Below, piece by piece: positions 23,108 to 30,302 of a stretch of DNA of 64,000 nt (its first letter is position 1; every line of letters starts with the position of its first letter). The notes beneath the pieces are model-generated. The model was given only the letters and a program-made list of their open reading frames with translations. It was not told where the DNA came from and did no database searches. The stretch comes from Verrucomicrobiota bacterium (GTDB lineage Bacteria; Verrucomicrobiota; Verrucomicrobiia; Opitutales; Puniceicoccaceae). The position numbers and the translations under genes were made by a program. The stretch is from assembly GCA_038744685.1 (NCBI GenBank), contig JBCDMB010000008.1, positions 1-64,000 of the forward strand, given 5' to 3'.

Positions 23108-23366
23108 ACAAGTAAACGTGAATAAGAGACAGTTGGTAAAAACAAGTAGTCCTAGGGATAGGAACAAAACTCATCGATAGGGCCTTTAGAACCGAAGCGG
23201 CAAATAGTGTCCAATGAAGGTTGGGTCTAGGCTGAGGCAAGCCGGTCACAGTGGAAATAGATCCCCGTTTTGAATAAACCAATGCGAGGCTTGCCAGAGC
23301 CTACCCCCTTTTGCCAACTCCAAACTTGCCCAGATACAGACGACCGACATTCTAACCTCCGTGGAC

Positions 23367-23410
23367 GTCCCCATAGTTCAATGGATAGAACCGCGGTTTC
23401 CTAACGCTAA
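23367..23410 (+). pseudogene. Truncated tRNA-Arg(CCU) copy, left boundary of the island
   Basis: The first 38 bases are identical to the complete tRNA-Arg at 28638-28675: acceptor strand, D arm and anticodon arm to just past the CCU anticodon. Two bases are then missing from the 3' anticodon strand and the match ends after CGCTAA. There is no T arm or 3' acceptor strand, so it cannot work as a tRNA. A 24-base block 33 bases upstream (23311-23334) is also identical to the block before the complete gene, so part of the promoter was copied as well. Confidence 0.85.
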
Positions 23411-23671
23411 AACACTGATTATTCGTGATTTGCAGGAATCATCAAATTGTTGATGCAGAGAAACTCGGGAGATTCCACCATCATCCTGAATCCGCCCAAA
23501 TTCGCTCAATTTTCGGCATGAGGTTACAAAATTCGGGTTACAAAATGGAAACTGGCTTTTCCGACCGTACCGCGAGAAAAGTGACAAAGGTTCGATCCAA
23601 ACGCTTTTTCGCCACCAGTTCTATGACCCGTAACGAACGACACCCCAATTTCTGCAATCTTCGATCCCTAT

Positions 23672-24622
23672 TCAAACAAACCTAACGCAAAGATCAGTCA
23701 CGCTCTTCAACTCAGTTTGCAACTCAAAATAACCATTAAGCAGATTCTCAAAAACACTCTCTGTTTTCACATCCAAGGTTCGCACATGAGTCGTCCTCAG
23801 CAATAAAGATAGGGTCTCTACCTGCTTAGGTGACTCCTTTGGTTTCATCTCATTGAAGGGTTCAAAAAACAGCATTTTCCATCCCGAAACCTTTGCTTTT
23901 CCAGAAGAATCGTCTACCAGCCCCTCATATTGTAGTCTGCCGTTCCGATAGCCACGAATTAACCGAGGCCTAGCTCCGATGCCAATTGAACGTATGTCAT
24001 TTGCGTCTGGCGAGCTGCAAGGAACCTCACATGACCACAGCTCTTCTTTCATCTCAGTCGGACCATATTTTTCCCAAACTTTCCTCACCAAAGTAGCCGC
24101 CGTTCCTAAAAACTGATCTGATCCATCGAAAAAGTCCAAATCACGATCAGAATCCAGAAATTCAATGGTCCCATCACTTCTCTTAAGATAAAGCATCGTC
24201 GGCGTAAGCTCCCAAGCTTCGACAACCATAATTGTCTCAATTCCATTGAACCAACCATCCCGCTTAGTGTCTTCATATCGGTATAATTTAATTCCAAGAG
24301 CATCCGCCAATCTGTAGGCTGATTTCGTAAAACCGCGAGAGGAAACCATGATTCCAAGATGAGCTCCAACGTCGCGTTTCAGGCCGATGAAACTCTCGAC
24401 CCCCTTAACATCAACTTTCCTACTCCAGTTTTTACATTCTACGGCAAAAAAGATGTCCTCGCCAGCCAGCTTTACTCGAACGCAAACATCTATTTGTCTT
24501 TTTCGGCCTGAAATCTTTCCCATAATCCTCTCATTTCTCGTAACGGTTCCGCTTCCAGAAAAGGACTTTTCTAAGTTCTCCACTACAGACTCAAACTGCT
24601 GCCAGTCTCCATCCATTGCCAT
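23672..24622 (-). CDS. Mrr-like PD-(D/E)XK restriction endonuclease domain protein
   Basis: About 316 aa. The nuclease core is at the N-terminus: E11 in WQQFE, D45 in RKRQIDVCVR, and E62-C-K64 in FFAVECKNW, the D...ExK arrangement of Mrr/type IV-like nucleases, followed by the helix KGVESFIGLKRDVGAHLGIMVSSRGFT. The C-terminal 180 residues are unassigned. ATG at 24622 follows GGAGGG by 3 bases and another ATG at 24616 by 9; the upstream TTG at 24709 has no ribosome site. It follows the PIN-fusion gene by about 110 bases in the same direction. A DNA-cleaving role in defence is inferred from fold and neighbour. Confidence 0.75.
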   Translation of the reverse strand: MAMDGDWQQFESVVENLEKSFSGSGTVTRNERIMGKISGRKRQIDVCVRVKLAGEDIFFAVECKNWSRKVDVKGVESFIGLKRDVGAHLGIMVSSRGFTKSAYRLADALGIKLYRYEDTKRDGWFNGIETIMVVEAWELTPTMLYLKRSDGTIEFLDSDRDLDFFDGSDQFLGTAATLVRKVWEKYGPTEMKEELWSCEVPCSSPDANDIRSIGIGARPRLIRGYRNGRLQYEGLVDDSSGKAKVSGWKMLFFEPFNEMKPKESPKQVETLSLLLRTTHVRTLDVKTESVFENLLNGYFELQTELKSVTDLCVRFV

Positions 24623-24730
24623 TTTCCCTCCGAAACCGACCAAGAAACAGCACCTAATCCGGAAAATATCGACCCTCAGAGTGAGATCCACTGTTGAAGG
24701 AATCTCCAAGTTCTCGCTTCGTTCCCTCCA

Positions 24731-26848
24731 TCATTTCGATGATTGCTTAATTTTAGACATGTAATCACGTATCATCCGGTTTTGCCTGTACGGAGGAAGG
24801 TCCTTCGTCTCCTCCTCTATCGAATTAAGCCCTTCCACCAATTCATCTGGAACATAACCTTTTTCTGAGAGGTCGAATACTAACGGGAGCGCACCATCTT
24901 CCCTACGATTATAGAGGCCTAAGTACTTCACAAAATAGTTAGGATTCATGGTAAGGCTTGGTTCGTTGCGCAACGTCCGTTCATGATCTACAGCCTGCAA
25001 CCGCCTGTCTCTTGTAAGTAACCACCACGATTTGCTACTTCCCTCCCCTTTTCTTAGTTGCTCCGTTAATAAAATAATCTTCGCATCATTCCTAGAAAGT
25101 CCTTCCAAAAGATCTTGAGGGTACCGTTTAGGATTATGCCTTCTAGCAAGCAAGACTGGCCAAAGGGATTCATACGAATGCTGATCAATTGTCTCCCTCT
25201 CTTTTTCAAAACTCTTGACAAACACGCCCAGCTCTTCCTCTAGAAACTCTTTGAGATCAAGGTGCGTGTCGTTTGTTCCAGCAAAAACATCAATGAACTC
25301 TGAGAAAGTTCTGAATTCTGAACCGTGATGCATATTGAAAGCGTCAACCAACTCGTTATTTGTGTGACCACCCTCGCGACCAATATTTGAATTATAAATA
25401 GATCGCGCTGCCGACAGTGATGATGCAAGCTCAGAGATAGTCTCCTCGGTAGCATAGACTTGAGTGTCTAGCTCCTTACACTGCTTTATCATTTGAGATA
25501 CTGTTCGATCTTCAGCGTCCTTAAGATAATCGCAAAAGCAGGGTATAAGAATATTCGTATCCAGAAGAATCTTACTTGAGCTAACAATTGATGAAATTGC
25601 TTCCCTTATTTTCTGAATCTCTTGTATAGCAAACAGAAACTCGTAGGTCCGTGATGCCTTACTTAAATATTTTCTTATCAGTCCAGTGGGCCGCTTAAGA
25701 ACATTTTCAACCAGCTGCGGAAGAATATCAAATTGCTCGACACGTTCATGAACTTGAGATGTCCGCAACTCGGAAGCGGGGTCAGAGATTTTGTTGAATA
25801 CGAATTCCGCGACAGAAAGGTCTTCGGCTCCCGAGAAATCAGCATCCGAGACTGCTCTAATTGACTTTTCAGCTCTTTCATAAAGCAATGCCCGTGCAAG
25901 GGAGCAGGCATCTTCTACGAAAGCTTCTCTGTCATGGTCATAATCTATGCCAAGTGTAGGGATTAACTCATCTAGTAGAACTCCAACGTCTACACAGGCA
26001 TCTTCGCGTAGTGCGGCAAAGATTGCGTGCCTATCTGCAATCCGAATTCTCTCGCGGTGTTCCAATGTGAAAGAATCGGTTGATCTGTGGTGTTTTATTC
26101 TTCCACCCTTAGACGAAAGTCGAACCAGAAGACCGTCGACCTTACTTTTCACAATTTCAGGTGGATATGTTCGAATGACCTTAAGAAAGTCATCGTAAAC
26201 CTCCGCACGAGGTTTCGGATCATCCCCAGTCGCATCTCGGAGCGAATATTCAAGCAAGGCTTCAAGACCAATGCTTTCAAGTGATTTCCCATCCTCCCTC
26301 GCCTCCAACTCAGCTGAAAGTGAAGCGATAATTGCAACCTTTTCCGGATCGGCTTGCATGGCTCCTATACCGTCTTCGGTTTTTCTTTGGGCTGTTATTG
26401 GATCACAAAACTTCAGCGCAAGCTCTTCAGACGCTGATCGGGTCGACTCTGAAGAATTAGACCGTGAAACAAAATATGCTTGGTCGCGAATATCCAGCGC
26501 GACACCCTCTCTGCGTGCAAATTTTCGAATGTTATCAGCCTTCCCCACTACTCTCCTATTAGTACAGTAGACCAGCTCACTGAGTGAGTATCCATTACTT
26601 CTAATGGTAGAGATGGTTTCTTTTATTTTGCGCTCCCAGCTCTCGGTCACTGAATACTGGGCATAGGTATTGGGATGGTCGTCAGACCTATGAATGTAAG
26701 CGTCCCTTCCCGCGTCATGTAGTCCACCAACAGGTCTAAGATTTTCGATTTCTGAAGACAGGAATGCGTTACAAAAAGTCTCAAATTCCCATCCGCCACT
26801 TGTCGGAATATTGTTCAACGCGAATGTGATTCGTTCTGATCTGATCAT
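24731..26848 (-). CDS. Two-nuclease fusion: PD-(D/E)XK-like N-terminus, C-terminal PIN domain
   Basis: About 705 aa. ATG at 26848 is chosen because GAGGA lies 5 bases upstream; the open frame extends to 26887. Residues 20-125 resemble a PD-(D/E)XK fold: WEFETF (E22/E24), DAGRDAYI (D49), YAQYSVTESW (Q64) and LVYCTN. Residues 130-420 are helical and unassigned. About 425-625 is a PIN ribonuclease domain: KILLDTNIL (D430), ETISEL (E473), SRNDAKIILL (D588) and WLLTRDRRL (D614) supply the four acidic metal ligands. It is the first gene of a pair with the Mrr-like gene. Neither domain nor their fusion matches a defence system I can name; toxicity or interference by nucleic-acid cleavage is inferred. 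Confidence 0.7.
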   Translation of the reverse strand: MIRSERITFALNNIPTSGGWEFETFCNAFLSSEIENLRPVGGLHDAGRDAYIHRSDDHPNTYAQYSVTESWERKIKETISTIRSNGYSLSELVYCTNRRVVGKADNIRKFARREGVALDIRDQAYFVSRSNSSESTRSASEELALKFCDPITAQRKTEDGIGAMQADPEKVAIIASLSAELEAREDGKSLESIGLEALLEYSLRDATGDDPKPRAEVYDDFLKVIRTYPPEIVKSKVDGLLVRLSSKGGRIKHHRSTDSFTLEHRERIRIADRHAIFAALREDACVDVGVLLDELIPTLGIDYDHDREAFVEDACSLARALLYERAEKSIRAVSDADFSGAEDLSVAEFVFNKISDPASELRTSQVHERVEQFDILPQLVENVLKRPTGLIRKYLSKASRTYEFLFAIQEIQKIREAISSIVSSSKILLDTNILIPCFCDYLKDAEDRTVSQMIKQCKELDTQVYATEETISELASSLSAARSIYNSNIGREGGHTNNELVDAFNMHHGSEFRTFSEFIDVFAGTNDTHLDLKEFLEEELGVFVKSFEKERETIDQHSYESLWPVLLARRHNPKRYPQDLLEGLSRNDAKIILLTEQLRKGEGSSKSWWLLTRDRRLQAVDHERTLRNEPSLTMNPNYFVKYLGLYNRREDGALPLVFDLSEKGYVPDELVEGLNSIEEETKDLPPYRQNRMIRDYMSKIKQSSK

Positions 26849-27052
26849 GATTCCTCGAAGTCGATTAATTATTGGAAGACCTAGCAAACCCTCAGAGACA
26901 ATTCTATCTAAAGCTGTTAAGGACGATTTACCCTAGGCTTATCAGATCAACAAAGTCTCCTCATTCGAATGTGTAACGATACCATTTGCTCTTACTACTA
27001 CCTCTTAGCCTTCTAAGACTGGACAGTTACTCTCCATTGTAAACAAGGAAAA

Positions 27053-27097
27053 GGGGCCGTAGGGGGGACCGCTTCCGCGGTCGCCCCTGGCCGCCCC
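27053..27097. repeat. Long G+C-rich hairpin
   Basis: The core GACCGC-ttcc-GCGGTC (27067-27082) is extended by GGGG/CCCC past one mismatch and by GGCC/GGCC-type outer pairing, giving an imperfect hairpin of about 45 bases in an A+T-rich setting. It lies just past the stop of the small minus-strand ORF at 27113 and could act as a terminator-like or REP-like element. No T-run follows. Confidence 0.5.
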
Positions 27098-27112
27098 GAT
27101 TTCACTTGGTCT

Positions 27113-27367
27113 TTAGGTCCGATTGACCAGTTCGCATCGACCAACGGTTAGTTGCTCTTTGAACAACCGCACGCTTCCCACTTTGAGCGTCACTGCCTTG
27201 AAGTCCGGTTCCGCCGGATACTTTGTGACCCTCTCTCCTTGGATCTGGATGCTGGAATCTTCCTTCGGATCGAAGATTTCCTCCCATCGGACGATACCCG
27301 GTTGAGTTCCAATCCCATGGGAGACAAGGACTACGTTTCTGTCGGGTTTAGTTTTGGTTGATGTCAA
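27113..27367 (-). CDS. Small ORF of unknown function
   Basis: An 84-residue frame (NVVLVSHGIGTQPG, then a beta-rich, charged stretch ending CELVNRT). It matches no family I recognise. In its favour are its place between two dispersed-repeat structures, which usually lie between genes, and ordinary amino-acid composition. Against it are the lack of a convincing ribosome site and the decayed state of the island. It may be a remnant of a larger gene. Confidence 0.3.
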   Translation of the reverse strand: MTSTKTKPDRNVVLVSHGIGTQPGIVRWEEIFDPKEDSSIQIQGERVTKYPAEPDFKAVTLKVGSVRLFKEQLTVGRCELVNRT

Positions 27368-27370
27368 AAT

Positions 27371-27440
27371 GGAGCGGCGGCTTGAGCCGCCGAAAGAGAA
27401 ATGCCCATTGACCGCATTCGGCAGCTAAAGCAGCCGCTCC
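27371..27440. repeat. REPIN-like pair of inverted REP units
   Basis: A 24-base unit starting GGAGCGGCGGCTTGAGCC (27371-27394) is followed after 22 bases by a related 24-base unit in reverse orientation (27417-27440, reading GGAGCGGCTGCTTTAGCTGC on the minus strand). Each unit is itself a palindrome, and the pair forms a larger hairpin: the layout of REPINs mobilised in trans by RAYT Y1 transposases. Further copies lie at 30005 and 40362. No RAYT gene is in the window. The stretch 27441-27697 after it holds no gene I can support. Confidence 0.7.
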
Positions 27441-27697
27441 CAATTAAGCCCCGATTCCAACCGGCATGGAATCGAAAAATCCACACGGGGTCCTGTTCAG
27501 TGGTTTCCTCTTTTTCCCACTGGGATCACTACTGTCCGACAGAAATACTGAATTGCTGCAAAGCTGCTATCAATCCTCCCTTAGCATAGCCATCCTAAAG
27601 GAATGCACATCCCTAAGCTACCTTAACGTTTGCGCGACTAGGGCTCCAACGTCCCAATTGCCGATCCATTTGGCGATGACTTTGAAACCGATTCACT

Positions 27698-28279
27698 TCA
27701 ATTCTCGGAAAAGACGATTCGCCTCTGACCCTTATTAATGACCGCGATGAGGATTCTTCCATCTGCCAACCGAATTAAGGGTGCACCGCCGTCGATCCGT
27801 AGTTCTACCACATCCTTTGAGAACACCGAGTGATCCAGAGGTGTAATCAGGTCGACCCGATACTCTCTATGCAGTCCTTCTAGATCCGACTGAAAGAAAG
27901 AATGTATCAATTTCTGAGTTTGGCTGTCGTTGATTCGGTTGAGACCAAAAAGCAATCCAATCGTCAAAGCGAAAACTATGATGACAAGACCCAAAGGGGA
28001 AAATGCAATCGACCGGAAGGAGAAGGTTGTGCGGTGCCGATAGAGCCGGGAAACAAGCCAAACCGCCCCTGCTATTGAGTTGTACGCGACCAGTAAAATC
28101 GCGGGAACAAGCAACAAAGGACAATAAAACCGATCGAAGCTTAGGGCTCTGATCATAGTCTCAAACCCTTGACGAATAGAGAAGCTGCCCTGTTCGATCC
28201 GTTCGCCAATAAAGGAGAACACGAATAAGAGGAGGAAATAGCAGCTGACTTGAATCCAGATTTCTCGTTTTCGCATCAT
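27698..28279 (-). CDS. Predicted membrane protein of unknown function
   Basis: About 193 aa from the ATG-ATG at 28279 (an upstream TTG at 28306 is possible). Three hydrophobic segments are visible: IQVSCYFLLLFVFSFIG, FYCPLLLVPAILLVAYNSIAGAVWLVS and FSPLGLVIIVFALTIGLLFGL (about 7-25, 50-75, 88-110). These are followed by an 80-residue, probably soluble, C-terminal domain with LRIDGGAPLIRLADGRILIAVINKGQ. It does not match a family I know. It is the last gene inside the tRNA-Arg island and could be a membrane partner of the nuclease cassette, but it is 850 bases upstream of it. Confidence 0.55.
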   Translation of the reverse strand: MMRKREIWIQVSCYFLLLFVFSFIGERIEQGSFSIRQGFETMIRALSFDRFYCPLLLVPAILLVAYNSIAGAVWLVSRLYRHRTTFSFRSIAFSPLGLVIIVFALTIGLLFGLNRINDSQTQKLIHSFFQSDLEGLHREYRVDLITPLDHSVFSKDVVELRIDGGAPLIRLADGRILIAVINKGQRRIVFSEN

Positions 28280-28637
28280 ACCGACGAAACGGCATAACCT
28301 AGGCAAACATCCCCTTCGAGAAGAAAAGAGGTATGAAATCCCCTGCCCCTTGATTATTTGCTCCCATTATAGTGAGACTCCTTGGACAACCGCCTTACTT
28401 AAACCCGTGTGCATCACTTGCAGCCCCGATCTTTGCAACCCCGTCTTACTCATTGAGAAAACCGGCGCAAATCCGTGCAATCTGCGGACAATTACCTTTC
28501 GTTTCGACGGAGCCCTGCTGATGAATCCAAACGGGGATCTTTTCTCAATCTGCCCGGCTTGTAACAGACGACTCCCGACCATTTGCCAACTCCAAACTTG
28601 CCCAGAACCCTTCGAAGCGCATTCTGCGCGTTTAGGC
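28280..28637. other. Region upstream of the tRNA-Arg gene
   Basis: No gene is supported here; the open plus-strand frame through it reads into the transposase by chance. It contains the 24-base block at 28583-28606 (TTGCCAACTCC then AAACTTGCCCAGA) that is repeated exactly at 23311-23334 before the truncated tRNA copy. Its TTGCCC could serve as a -35 element for the tRNA, which starts 31 bases later. Confidence 0.5.
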
Positions 28638-28712
28638 GTCCCCATAGTTCAATGGATAGAACCGCGGTTTCCTAAACCGCTAATCCGAGTTCGAGTCTCG
28701 GTGGGGGCACCA
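28638..28712 (+). tRNA. tRNA-Arg, anticodon CCU
   Basis: The cloverleaf closes fully. The acceptor is GTCCCCA/TGGGGGC with one G-U pair; the D stem GTTC/GAAC; the anticodon stem GCGGT/ACCGC with loop TTCCTAA (anticodon CCT in DNA, reading AGG); the T stem CCGAG/CTCGG with loop TTCGAGT; discriminator A at 28709. The CCA end (28710-28712) is encoded. Its 5' half is duplicated at 23367, so this gene marks the right end of the island. Confidence 0.96.
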
Positions 28713-28814
28713 TCCTTCGTTCTGTCCTTCGGCCAGACACTTCGGGGTCTGCAGGGTCTGCCCCTCTTGATCAAAAAGTGGGGACAGGCAGCCCGAAGTG
28801 CTAACCTGCCCCCG

Positions 28815-30302
28815 ATGATAATTAGAGAGATAGGCATAAAAGGGTATGAGTTTTTGGGTGTCGAACCAATAGCTGCGGATTGCAGCGAGGTTCATCTGGC
28901 TCCGAAGGAGCCTCCGAGGCGTTGCCCTTACTGTGGAGGCGGCCGCCTCCACAGTAAGGGCCGGTATGAGCGCCGGGCCAATCACCTGGATTTGATAAAC
29001 AGCCGTTGTGTCGTGGTCGTGCACACCAGGCGTTGGCAGTGTCTGGAGTGTGGGCGCAGCTTTGTCCCGGATACTCCGGGCATCCGCCCCTGGCGAAGAT
29101 CGACCGAGAGGCTTAGACACAAGCTCTACCAGGACCATGAGGATGGCGTTGACCTCAAGGCTATCTCACGAAGATCACTCGTTAGTGCCGCCACTGCCGG
29201 AAGAATCTTCCGGCAGTGGACCGAGAGAATCGCCCGTGAGCGCAGCGATCTGCACTGCCCACTTGTCCTCGGCATCGACGAACACACCCTCCACCGTAAA
29301 AGCCGCTTCGTGACCACCTTCTGTGACCTCAAAAACAATAAGGTCTTCGATCTCGCTGAAGGCAAAAGCGAGAAGGAACTTGCCCCCTTCCTGCGCTCTC
29401 TCAAGGGGCGCGAGCGCGTCAGGGTCGTCTGTATCGACCTCTCCAGCTCCTACCGCTCCATGGTCAGAAAATGGTTCCCGAACGCCCGGATCGTTGCCGA
29501 CCGCTTCCACGTCGTCCGGGTCCTCGGTATCCACTTCAATCACCTCTGTAGATCCATCGCTCCCGAGATCACCCGCCATAGCGGGCTTCTCGGGGCCATA
29601 CGAACCAGACCCGATAGACTCTCACACAAACAAAAACAAAGACTCCTTCTTCTCTTCCAAAAGTATCCAGCCCTGGAACCTCTCTATCACAAGAGATGGC
29701 AAATACACTCGCTGCTCTGCAGAAAACACTGCTCAGCAAAAGCCTGCAAAATAAACGCCAGAGAACTCGATCATCATATCGACGACCTCAACAAACAGGG
29801 ATTCCCTGATCTCGCTACTCTCGCCAAAACCCTCATCCAGTGGATCGAGCCCATCGCACGTATGTGGCGATTTACCAAAAACAACGCCATTACCGAGGGC
29901 TTCCATCGCAAAATGAAACTCATTCAACGAAGAGCCTACGGCTTCCGATCCTTCCAGAACTATCGACTCCGAGCCCTCGAGTGGTTTTCACTCGTGCCTT
30001 CCCTATCGGCGGCTGAAGCCGCCGCTCCTTCTATTCAAATCCAAATGAGTCCGGTCAATTTGTTCACTTCTTGTTACCTCCCCACTCTCTATCACCATTC
30101 ATCAGTGGTTGATCCAGAGAACTGTTATTCCCGTGCACTGCATCCTCTGCCATTTGCTTCAACGTCTCGCGGTCGACTTTACCTCCCGCATTCATGGGCA
30201 TTTGAGGTAGATAGACGATTTCCTCGGGTACCTTGTAGCCTACCCGCTCCCTCGAAAATTCGATCAGCTCGGACTCCGAAGGCGGGTTTACTCCCTTTTT
30301 GA
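28815..30302 (+). CDS. ISL3 family transposase, C-terminus read through
   Basis: DDE transposase of the ISL3 type. From ATG at 28815 (MIIREIGIKG) there is an N-terminal zinc-finger region (RCPYCGGG and WQCLECGRSF), then a helix-turn-helix and the DDE core: VLGIDEHTLHRKS (first D), VVCIDLSSSYRSM (second D), PNARIVADRFHVVRVL, and KNNAITEGFHRKMKLIQRRAYGFRSFQNYRLR (catalytic E). The family-like part ends near 30000. The frame then runs through a REP unit and antisense to the acyl-CoA ligase before stopping at 30302, so the native stop is lost or moved. It starts about 100 bases after the tRNA. No terminal inverted repeats were recognised. Two long palindromes lie in its coding sequence. Confidence 0.88.
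   Translation: MIIREIGIKGYEFLGVEPIAADCSEVHLAPKEPPRRCPYCGGGRLHSKGRYERRANHLDLINSRCVVVVHTRRWQCLECGRSFVPDTPGIRPWRRSTERLRHKLYQDHEDGVDLKAISRRSLVSAATAGRIFRQWTERIARERSDLHCPLVLGIDEHTLHRKSRFVTTFCDLKNNKVFDLAEGKSEKELAPFLRSLKGRERVRVVCIDLSSSYRSMVRKWFPNARIVADRFHVVRVLGIHFNHLCRSIAPEITRHSGLLGAIRTRPDRLSHKQKQRLLLLFQKYPALEPLYHKRWQIHSLLCRKHCSAKACKINARELDHHIDDLNKQGFPDLATLAKTLIQWIEPIARMWRFTKNNAITEGFHRKMKLIQRRAYGFRSFQNYRLRALEWFSLVPSLSAAEAAAPSIQIQMSPVNLFTSCYLPTLYHHSSVVDPENCYSRALHPLPFASTSRGRLYLPHSWAFEVDRRFPRVPCSLPAPSKIRSARTPKAGLLPF
28925..28960. repeat. Perfect 36-bp palindrome inside the transposase gene
   Basis: The 18 bases 28925-28942 (beginning CCCTTACTGTGGAGGC) are followed directly by their exact reverse complement (28943-28960). 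The palindrome covers the codons for the first zinc-finger knuckle and the residues after it (CPYCGGGRLHSKG). Confidence 0.9.
29191..29219. repeat. Perfect 14-bp inverted repeat inside the transposase gene
   Basis: CCACTGCCGGAAGA (29191-29204), one A, and the exact reverse complement (29206-29219). It covers the codons of the helix-turn-helix segment ATAGRIFRQW. Confidence 0.9.
30005..30028. repeat. Single REP unit between transposase and acyl-CoA ligase
   Basis: Read on the minus strand it is GGAGCGGCGGCTTCAGCC followed by GCCGAT, the same unit as at 27371. It sits exactly where the transposase homology ends and stays open in the transposase frame, adding residues AAEAAAPS. Confidence 0.75.

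Follow-up and report, generated by a model that had tools for sequence, protein, structure and literature searches.

A 705-aa protein encoded on a 5.3-kb segment of Verrucomicrobiota DNA is probably an antiviral defence protein, judging from its sequence relatives and their genomic settings, and the segment itself is very probably foreign DNA that was inserted into a tRNA-Arg gene. The analysis covered 64,000 nucleotides of contig JBCDMB010000008.1 (hereafter the window). Tentatively, the protein can be read as a member of an undescribed single-gene defence family, in which an altered Mrr-like nucleic-acid sensor is joined to a PIN RNase effector, whose members are scattered across one phylum and enterobacterial plasmids, and which here lies on an island that would have supplied its target tRNA gene with a new promoter and 5' half. 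The island and the single-gene defence reading, taken together, have about even chances of being correct, and the mechanism is the least certain step. If true, a nuclease-type domain minus its motif lysine became a sensor and was fused to an RNase effector within one polypeptide, giving a simple one-gene defence system that is testable in laboratory E. coli via its plasmid-borne relative.

Domain architecture of the 705-aa protein

The gene occupies positions 24731-26848 on the minus strand, its start having been moved from that of the mechanical reading frame (to 26887, 718 aa) to an ATG at 26848 with AGGA upstream; residue numbers D443, E486, D601 and D627 follow the 718-aa frame. Profiles and inspection point to an N-terminal Mrr-like domain, a middle region and a C-terminal probable PIN domain, and at the profile level the first of these assignments is firm and the PIN assignment moderate. 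No Pfam or NCBIfam model reaches its cut-off with the protein, which also lacks a PHROG match, and its N-terminal domain does not match Mrr_cat at the Pfam gathering score. Profile-profile comparison, with a query profile of five relatives and a Mrr_cat profile built from relatives' genomes, matched the N-terminus to Mrr_cat with E 1e-4 (reversed control 0.15). The C-terminus matched the first half of the PIN profile with E 7e-4 (reversed control 0.13), found no support in that comparison for the second half, and stays under the PF01850 cut-off (13.4 vs 23.6 bits).

The Mrr-like domain carries the motif D-x-GRD...QYS, in which the aspartates D58 and D62 are kept. All members of the family have QYS, QHS or QIS, that is, Q-x-S instead of Q/E-x-K, and so the motif lysine is missing; D58, D62 and a lysine that follows the Q-x-S, K87, are invariant in all of them. 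The N-terminus resembles the Mrr/Mrr_cat endonucleases in its profile match and its aspartates; the 705-aa protein differs from them in the Q-x-S motif and in its large C-terminal PIN-like region.

The first half of the probable PIN domain extends from ILLDTNILIP (D443) to TEETISEL (E486) at 25424-25570 (-), as seen by profile and by inspection, and the later acidic motifs, SRND (D601) and WWLLTRD (D627) at 25007-25096 (-), were recognized by eye and have no profile support. On inspection, three of the four lineages (window, plasmid and genome G442) retain D443, E486, D601 and D627, and the member in genome G391 lacks the first PIN aspartate. The acidic pattern is common to this protein and VapC toxins, which differ in being about 130 aa long and having a VapB partner; here, the protein has 705 aa and no antitoxin gene was seen. 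Single-sequence AlphaFold2 models of the two domains had a pLDDT of about 39, which is uninformative.

Relatives and their genomic settings

The family is rare and appears to be undescribed in the sources searched, with partial coverage of the literature. Its full-length members are 20-29% identical to the 705-aa protein. Those on enterobacterial plasmids align over 97% of its length with 23% identity (E 2e-28), and plasmids in total yielded eight full-length relatives, closely alike, and one partial one. When the phylum was searched with an alignment of two rows, G442 (E 1e-93) and G391 each proved to have a full-length relative. The class search gave no additional full-length relative, and the order search, besides the window itself, only a domain match. 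Scans of genome contigs and viral contigs, with the single protein and with the alignment, found no relatives; phages gave no match and PDB sequence searches nothing significant.

The association with defence comes from the settings of these relatives. The G391 relative lies in a dense defence island with PDC-S41 (1e-269), AbiEi (6e-57), a type IV restriction enzyme (2e-227) and PDC-S14 (8e-114), and the G442 relative lies near a PDC-S45-like protein, a phage-type helicase/primase and an integrase. The plasmid relative adjoins a gene for a TrlF/Ppl-like ATPase (Ppl model E 6e-35). Together with the window, these make four independent contexts, all of them mobile or defence-related, a small number on which to base the association. 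Since relatives occur on plasmids, near an integrase and in a phage-defence island, the gene is probably antiviral, and the candidate defence role put forward in the preliminary description is thus supported for this gene.

The E. coli plasmid relative has the accession WP_016156503, and most of the plasmid locus is present in only 5 of 5426 E. coli genomes. Nothing was found in the part of the literature covered on the E. coli accessions and the 'TrlF family'. In the full-locus plasmids examined, a 146-aa protein of unknown family, WP_016156504 (L041:7425-7865), is encoded upstream of the relative and is a possible enterobacterial partner.

The Q-x-S Mrr-like domain also recurs in REase-TPR proteins of two further genomes, G034 and G553, as the N-terminus of proteins that have TPR repeats in place of the PIN domain, the TPR fusion being demonstrated for G034; this hints at a reusable recognition module. 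The gene cluster around the G034 protein (L015:4073-18914), which resembles a Wadjet system, also encodes a 1089-aa protein of unknown family.

Functional interpretation

The two-domain layout suggests a possible mechanism, held with less than even confidence, in which the Mrr-like domain acts as sensor and the PIN domain as effector. Specifically, the N-terminal domain without the motif lysine would sense or bind invading nucleic acid, and the C-terminal domain would act as an RNase, halting translation or killing the infected cell. The protein is therefore proposed as a single-gene, auto-inhibited abortive defence protein, a proposal in which we infer the sensor role, the effector role and the protection from phage alike. 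A functional precedent may be seen in DS-3, which with DS-5 belongs to the PIN-nuclease defence systems of DefensePredictor that were validated in E. coli (PMC13092281). DS-3 is a single protein for which its authors suggested auto-inhibition and whose PIN domain is split between the N and C termini, and DS-5 combines PIN with a separate DUF5830 protein (PMC13092281). The 705-aa protein shares with both a PIN nuclease without a classical antitoxin, and with DS-3 the single-protein format; no Mrr-like domain is described for DS-3 or DS-5, which by description sets them apart from it. DS-3 is thus invoked as an analogy of function, and kinship is not claimed.

Alternatively, the 705-aa protein could be a restriction enzyme that cuts DNA, with K87, located in the following helix, replacing the motif lysine and a C-terminal region that is merely regulatory. 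The homology of its N-terminus to Mrr_cat and the invariance of D58, D62 and K87 speak for such an enzyme, as does the occurrence of Q-x-S followed by a lysine in the related TPR proteins; given the invariant lysine at 87, the Mrr-like domain may indeed remain active. The canonical Mrr relatives that were aligned, however, have their lysine two residues past the Q/E or at the equivalent place, and a merely regulatory C-terminus sits poorly with an acidic pattern kept in three of four lineages, which leaves DNA cutting a rather unlikely account.

A split tRNA-Arg gene at the boundaries of the probable island

The 5' half of tRNA-Arg(CCU) is duplicated exactly: positions 23366-23404 and 28637-28675, both on the plus strand and 5.27 kb apart, are identical over 39 of 39 nucleotides, each copy consisting of the tRNA 5' half and one preceding base. 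The identical stretch bracketing the segment, previously given as 38 nt, is thereby confirmed and one base longer. ARAGORN and Rfam agree that only the right-hand copy belongs to a complete tRNA, a tRNA-Arg with CCT anticodon at 28638-28712 (+) that is the sole complete tRNA in the window; the left-hand copy is not called. The left fragment, an attL-like boundary, ends in the anticodon loop, and the right copy, the 5' half of the intact gene, is attR-like and would form the restoring end of the island. A perfect match of 39 nt inside 5.3 kb greatly exceeds what chance would give. An assembly error at the repeat would be possible, but the segment lies well inside the 141-kb contig. A putative 3' remnant of the tRNA at about 23590-23618 was dismissed on inspection, the T-stem being absent.

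Both copies lie in the same orientation, with the 5' fragment upstream of the intact gene. This is the arrangement that Islander looks for, an intact tDNA and a same-orientation fragment from the tDNA end, the 5' fragment being 5' of the gene. Of the 3919 tRNA islands that Islander lists, 159 have a 5' fragment left behind (PMC4383910), and this polarity is therefore known but uncommon. The present island is a further case of this known kind with the uncommon polarity, and a predicted insertion at the anticodon loop fits the 5'-fragment type. It shares with the Islander class the intact tDNA, the same-orientation end fragment and more than 2 kb of foreign DNA, and differs in that the 5' fragment is displaced and an integrase gene is absent, for which the Islander filter would reject it. 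The junction thereby offers a clear sequence example of a minority polarity among tRNA islands.

The homology continues 5' of the two copies (23307-23410 vs 28579-28683, 80% identity, E about 1.7e-19 to 3e-19), and the block directly 5' of the tRNA has no further occurrence anywhere in the genome. The upstream region of the left copy (23307-23365, +) contains a promoter-like TTGCCC-N16-CATTCT and a conserved TTTGCCAACTCCAAACTTGCCCAGA block, and that of the right copy (28579-28636, +) likewise contains TTGCCC-N16-CATTCT. These -35/-10-like hexamers are identical in both copies, are separated by 16 nt in each and stand at the distance expected of a tRNA promoter. A 25-nt block ending in the region of the first hexamer is also identical. 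Counted by hand, the spacers have diverged to 7 of 16 identities, and the two copies also differ in the final 12-13 nt ahead of the tRNA. Loss of the spacer with retention of the hexamers and the 39-nt tRNA part would be unexpected in a decaying duplicate; it is the pattern that two promoters with separate histories in different genomes, joined by insertion, would show. On that basis, the left copy would be the original host promoter and 5' half, and the right promoter would be island-borne. A resemblance of the right promoter to that of a genus relative, G001 (13-nt match, p 0.014, one of six comparisons), was not significant and was dropped.

The sequence is best explained by a model in which the island entered the host tRNA-Arg(CCU) gene through recombination at its anticodon loop. 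Host promoter and 5' half would have been displaced, in the less common polarity, to become the left copy, and the gene would have been rebuilt with the promoter and 5' half carried by the island, which now form the right copy. The integrase would have been lost or would act from elsewhere, both the integrase mechanism and the direction of transfer being parts of the model. No trace of a tyrosine integrase was found within the island, as the preliminary description had held, and the interval could therefore be no more than a remnant without its integrase or a form mobilised in trans. Tyrosine recombinases occur elsewhere in the genome, and position 132970 of this contig has one with about 310 aa. 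The neighbours of tRNA-Arg(CCU) are quite different in both other genomes of the genus, and no syntenic tRNA locus that could show an empty site was found.

Composition and remaining cargo

The two nuclease genes of the segment are foreign by composition. In 1-kb windows, GC is 0.43-0.45 over these genes, about 0.50-0.55 outside and 0.47-0.50 over 27000-28600; the A+T richness earlier ascribed to the whole segment accordingly holds for the nuclease genes and is weaker at 27000-28600. The proposed check of G+C and codon usage agrees: GC3 is 0.41 for the 705-aa gene and 0.44 for the Mrr gene, compared with 0.58 +/- 0.04 (minimum 0.50) for 30 flanking genes, and the codon distance of both lies outside the range of these flanking genes.

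These data bear on a different origin of the boundaries, namely that the partial tRNA arose incidentally when the locus was duplicated locally or recombined illegitimately, with no site-specific island and with nuclease genes that came separately. In favour of such an origin are the missing integrase trace, the near-host composition of 27000-28600, the dispersed repeat copies close to both boundaries and the ISL3 transposase gene directly after the intact tRNA. It is nevertheless improbable, as the fragment starts at the tRNA 5' end and stops in the anticodon loop, where crossovers typically occur, and the promoter hexamers are kept with a diverged spacer, yet the 39-nt tRNA part is identical.

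The second nuclease-type gene, at 23672-24622 (-), encodes a 316-aa protein with an Mrr_cat domain (Pfam PF04471, E 8e-12, 45.7 bits vs a gathering score of 21). Its start was moved to an ATG at 24622 with GGAGG just upstream, the mechanical frame running to 24709 (345 aa). With its intact D...ExK (VECKNW and an upstream D), the product is predicted to be an ordinary Mrr-type endonuclease, which would constitute an independent second cargo gene 108 nt downstream of the 705-aa gene. Its relatives on plasmids and in 388 genomes of the phylum share just the N-terminal domain and not the C-terminal part. In the suggested comparison with defence profiles, neither nuclease convincingly matched a named PADLOC-DB 2.0 system: the best model was PDC-S02 (E 0.0017) for the Mrr protein and LeoA (E 7e-4, 16.8 bits) for the 705-aa protein, whose LeoA and SMEK_N matches were weak and were not used to name it.

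The preliminary description had joined the two nuclease genes into one compact two-component system, a highly improbable arrangement in which the shared strand, 108-nt gap and similar foreign composition are set against the absence of an Mrr_cat partner beside every full-length 705-aa relative, among the neighbours examined, and against the N-terminal-only likeness of the Mrr relatives. What stands of the earlier tRNA-bounded island is an inserted segment of foreign composition without an integrase, rather than a two-nuclease cassette. The two nuclease-type genes of its inventory likewise stand, and the small membrane protein, a 202-aa frame at 27698-28306 (-), is of uncertain reality as a gene, because it has no relatives in 346 genomes and its composition (GC3 0.54) is not clearly foreign.

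Further features lie within and around the segment. About 640 nt of the island (27060-27700) hold no convincing gene and include a GC-rich hairpin at 27375-27392. Copies of a dispersed repeat lie in opposite orientations just 5' of the left fragment (23219-23273) and of the right tRNA (28526-28580), and several further copies of this repeat are found elsewhere in the genome, on contigs C6, C30, C42 and C52. The ISL3-family transposase gene (28811-30302, +) starts some 100 nt after the end of the intact tRNA-Arg, and its reading frame contains a perfect 19-nt inverted repeat at 28924-28961.
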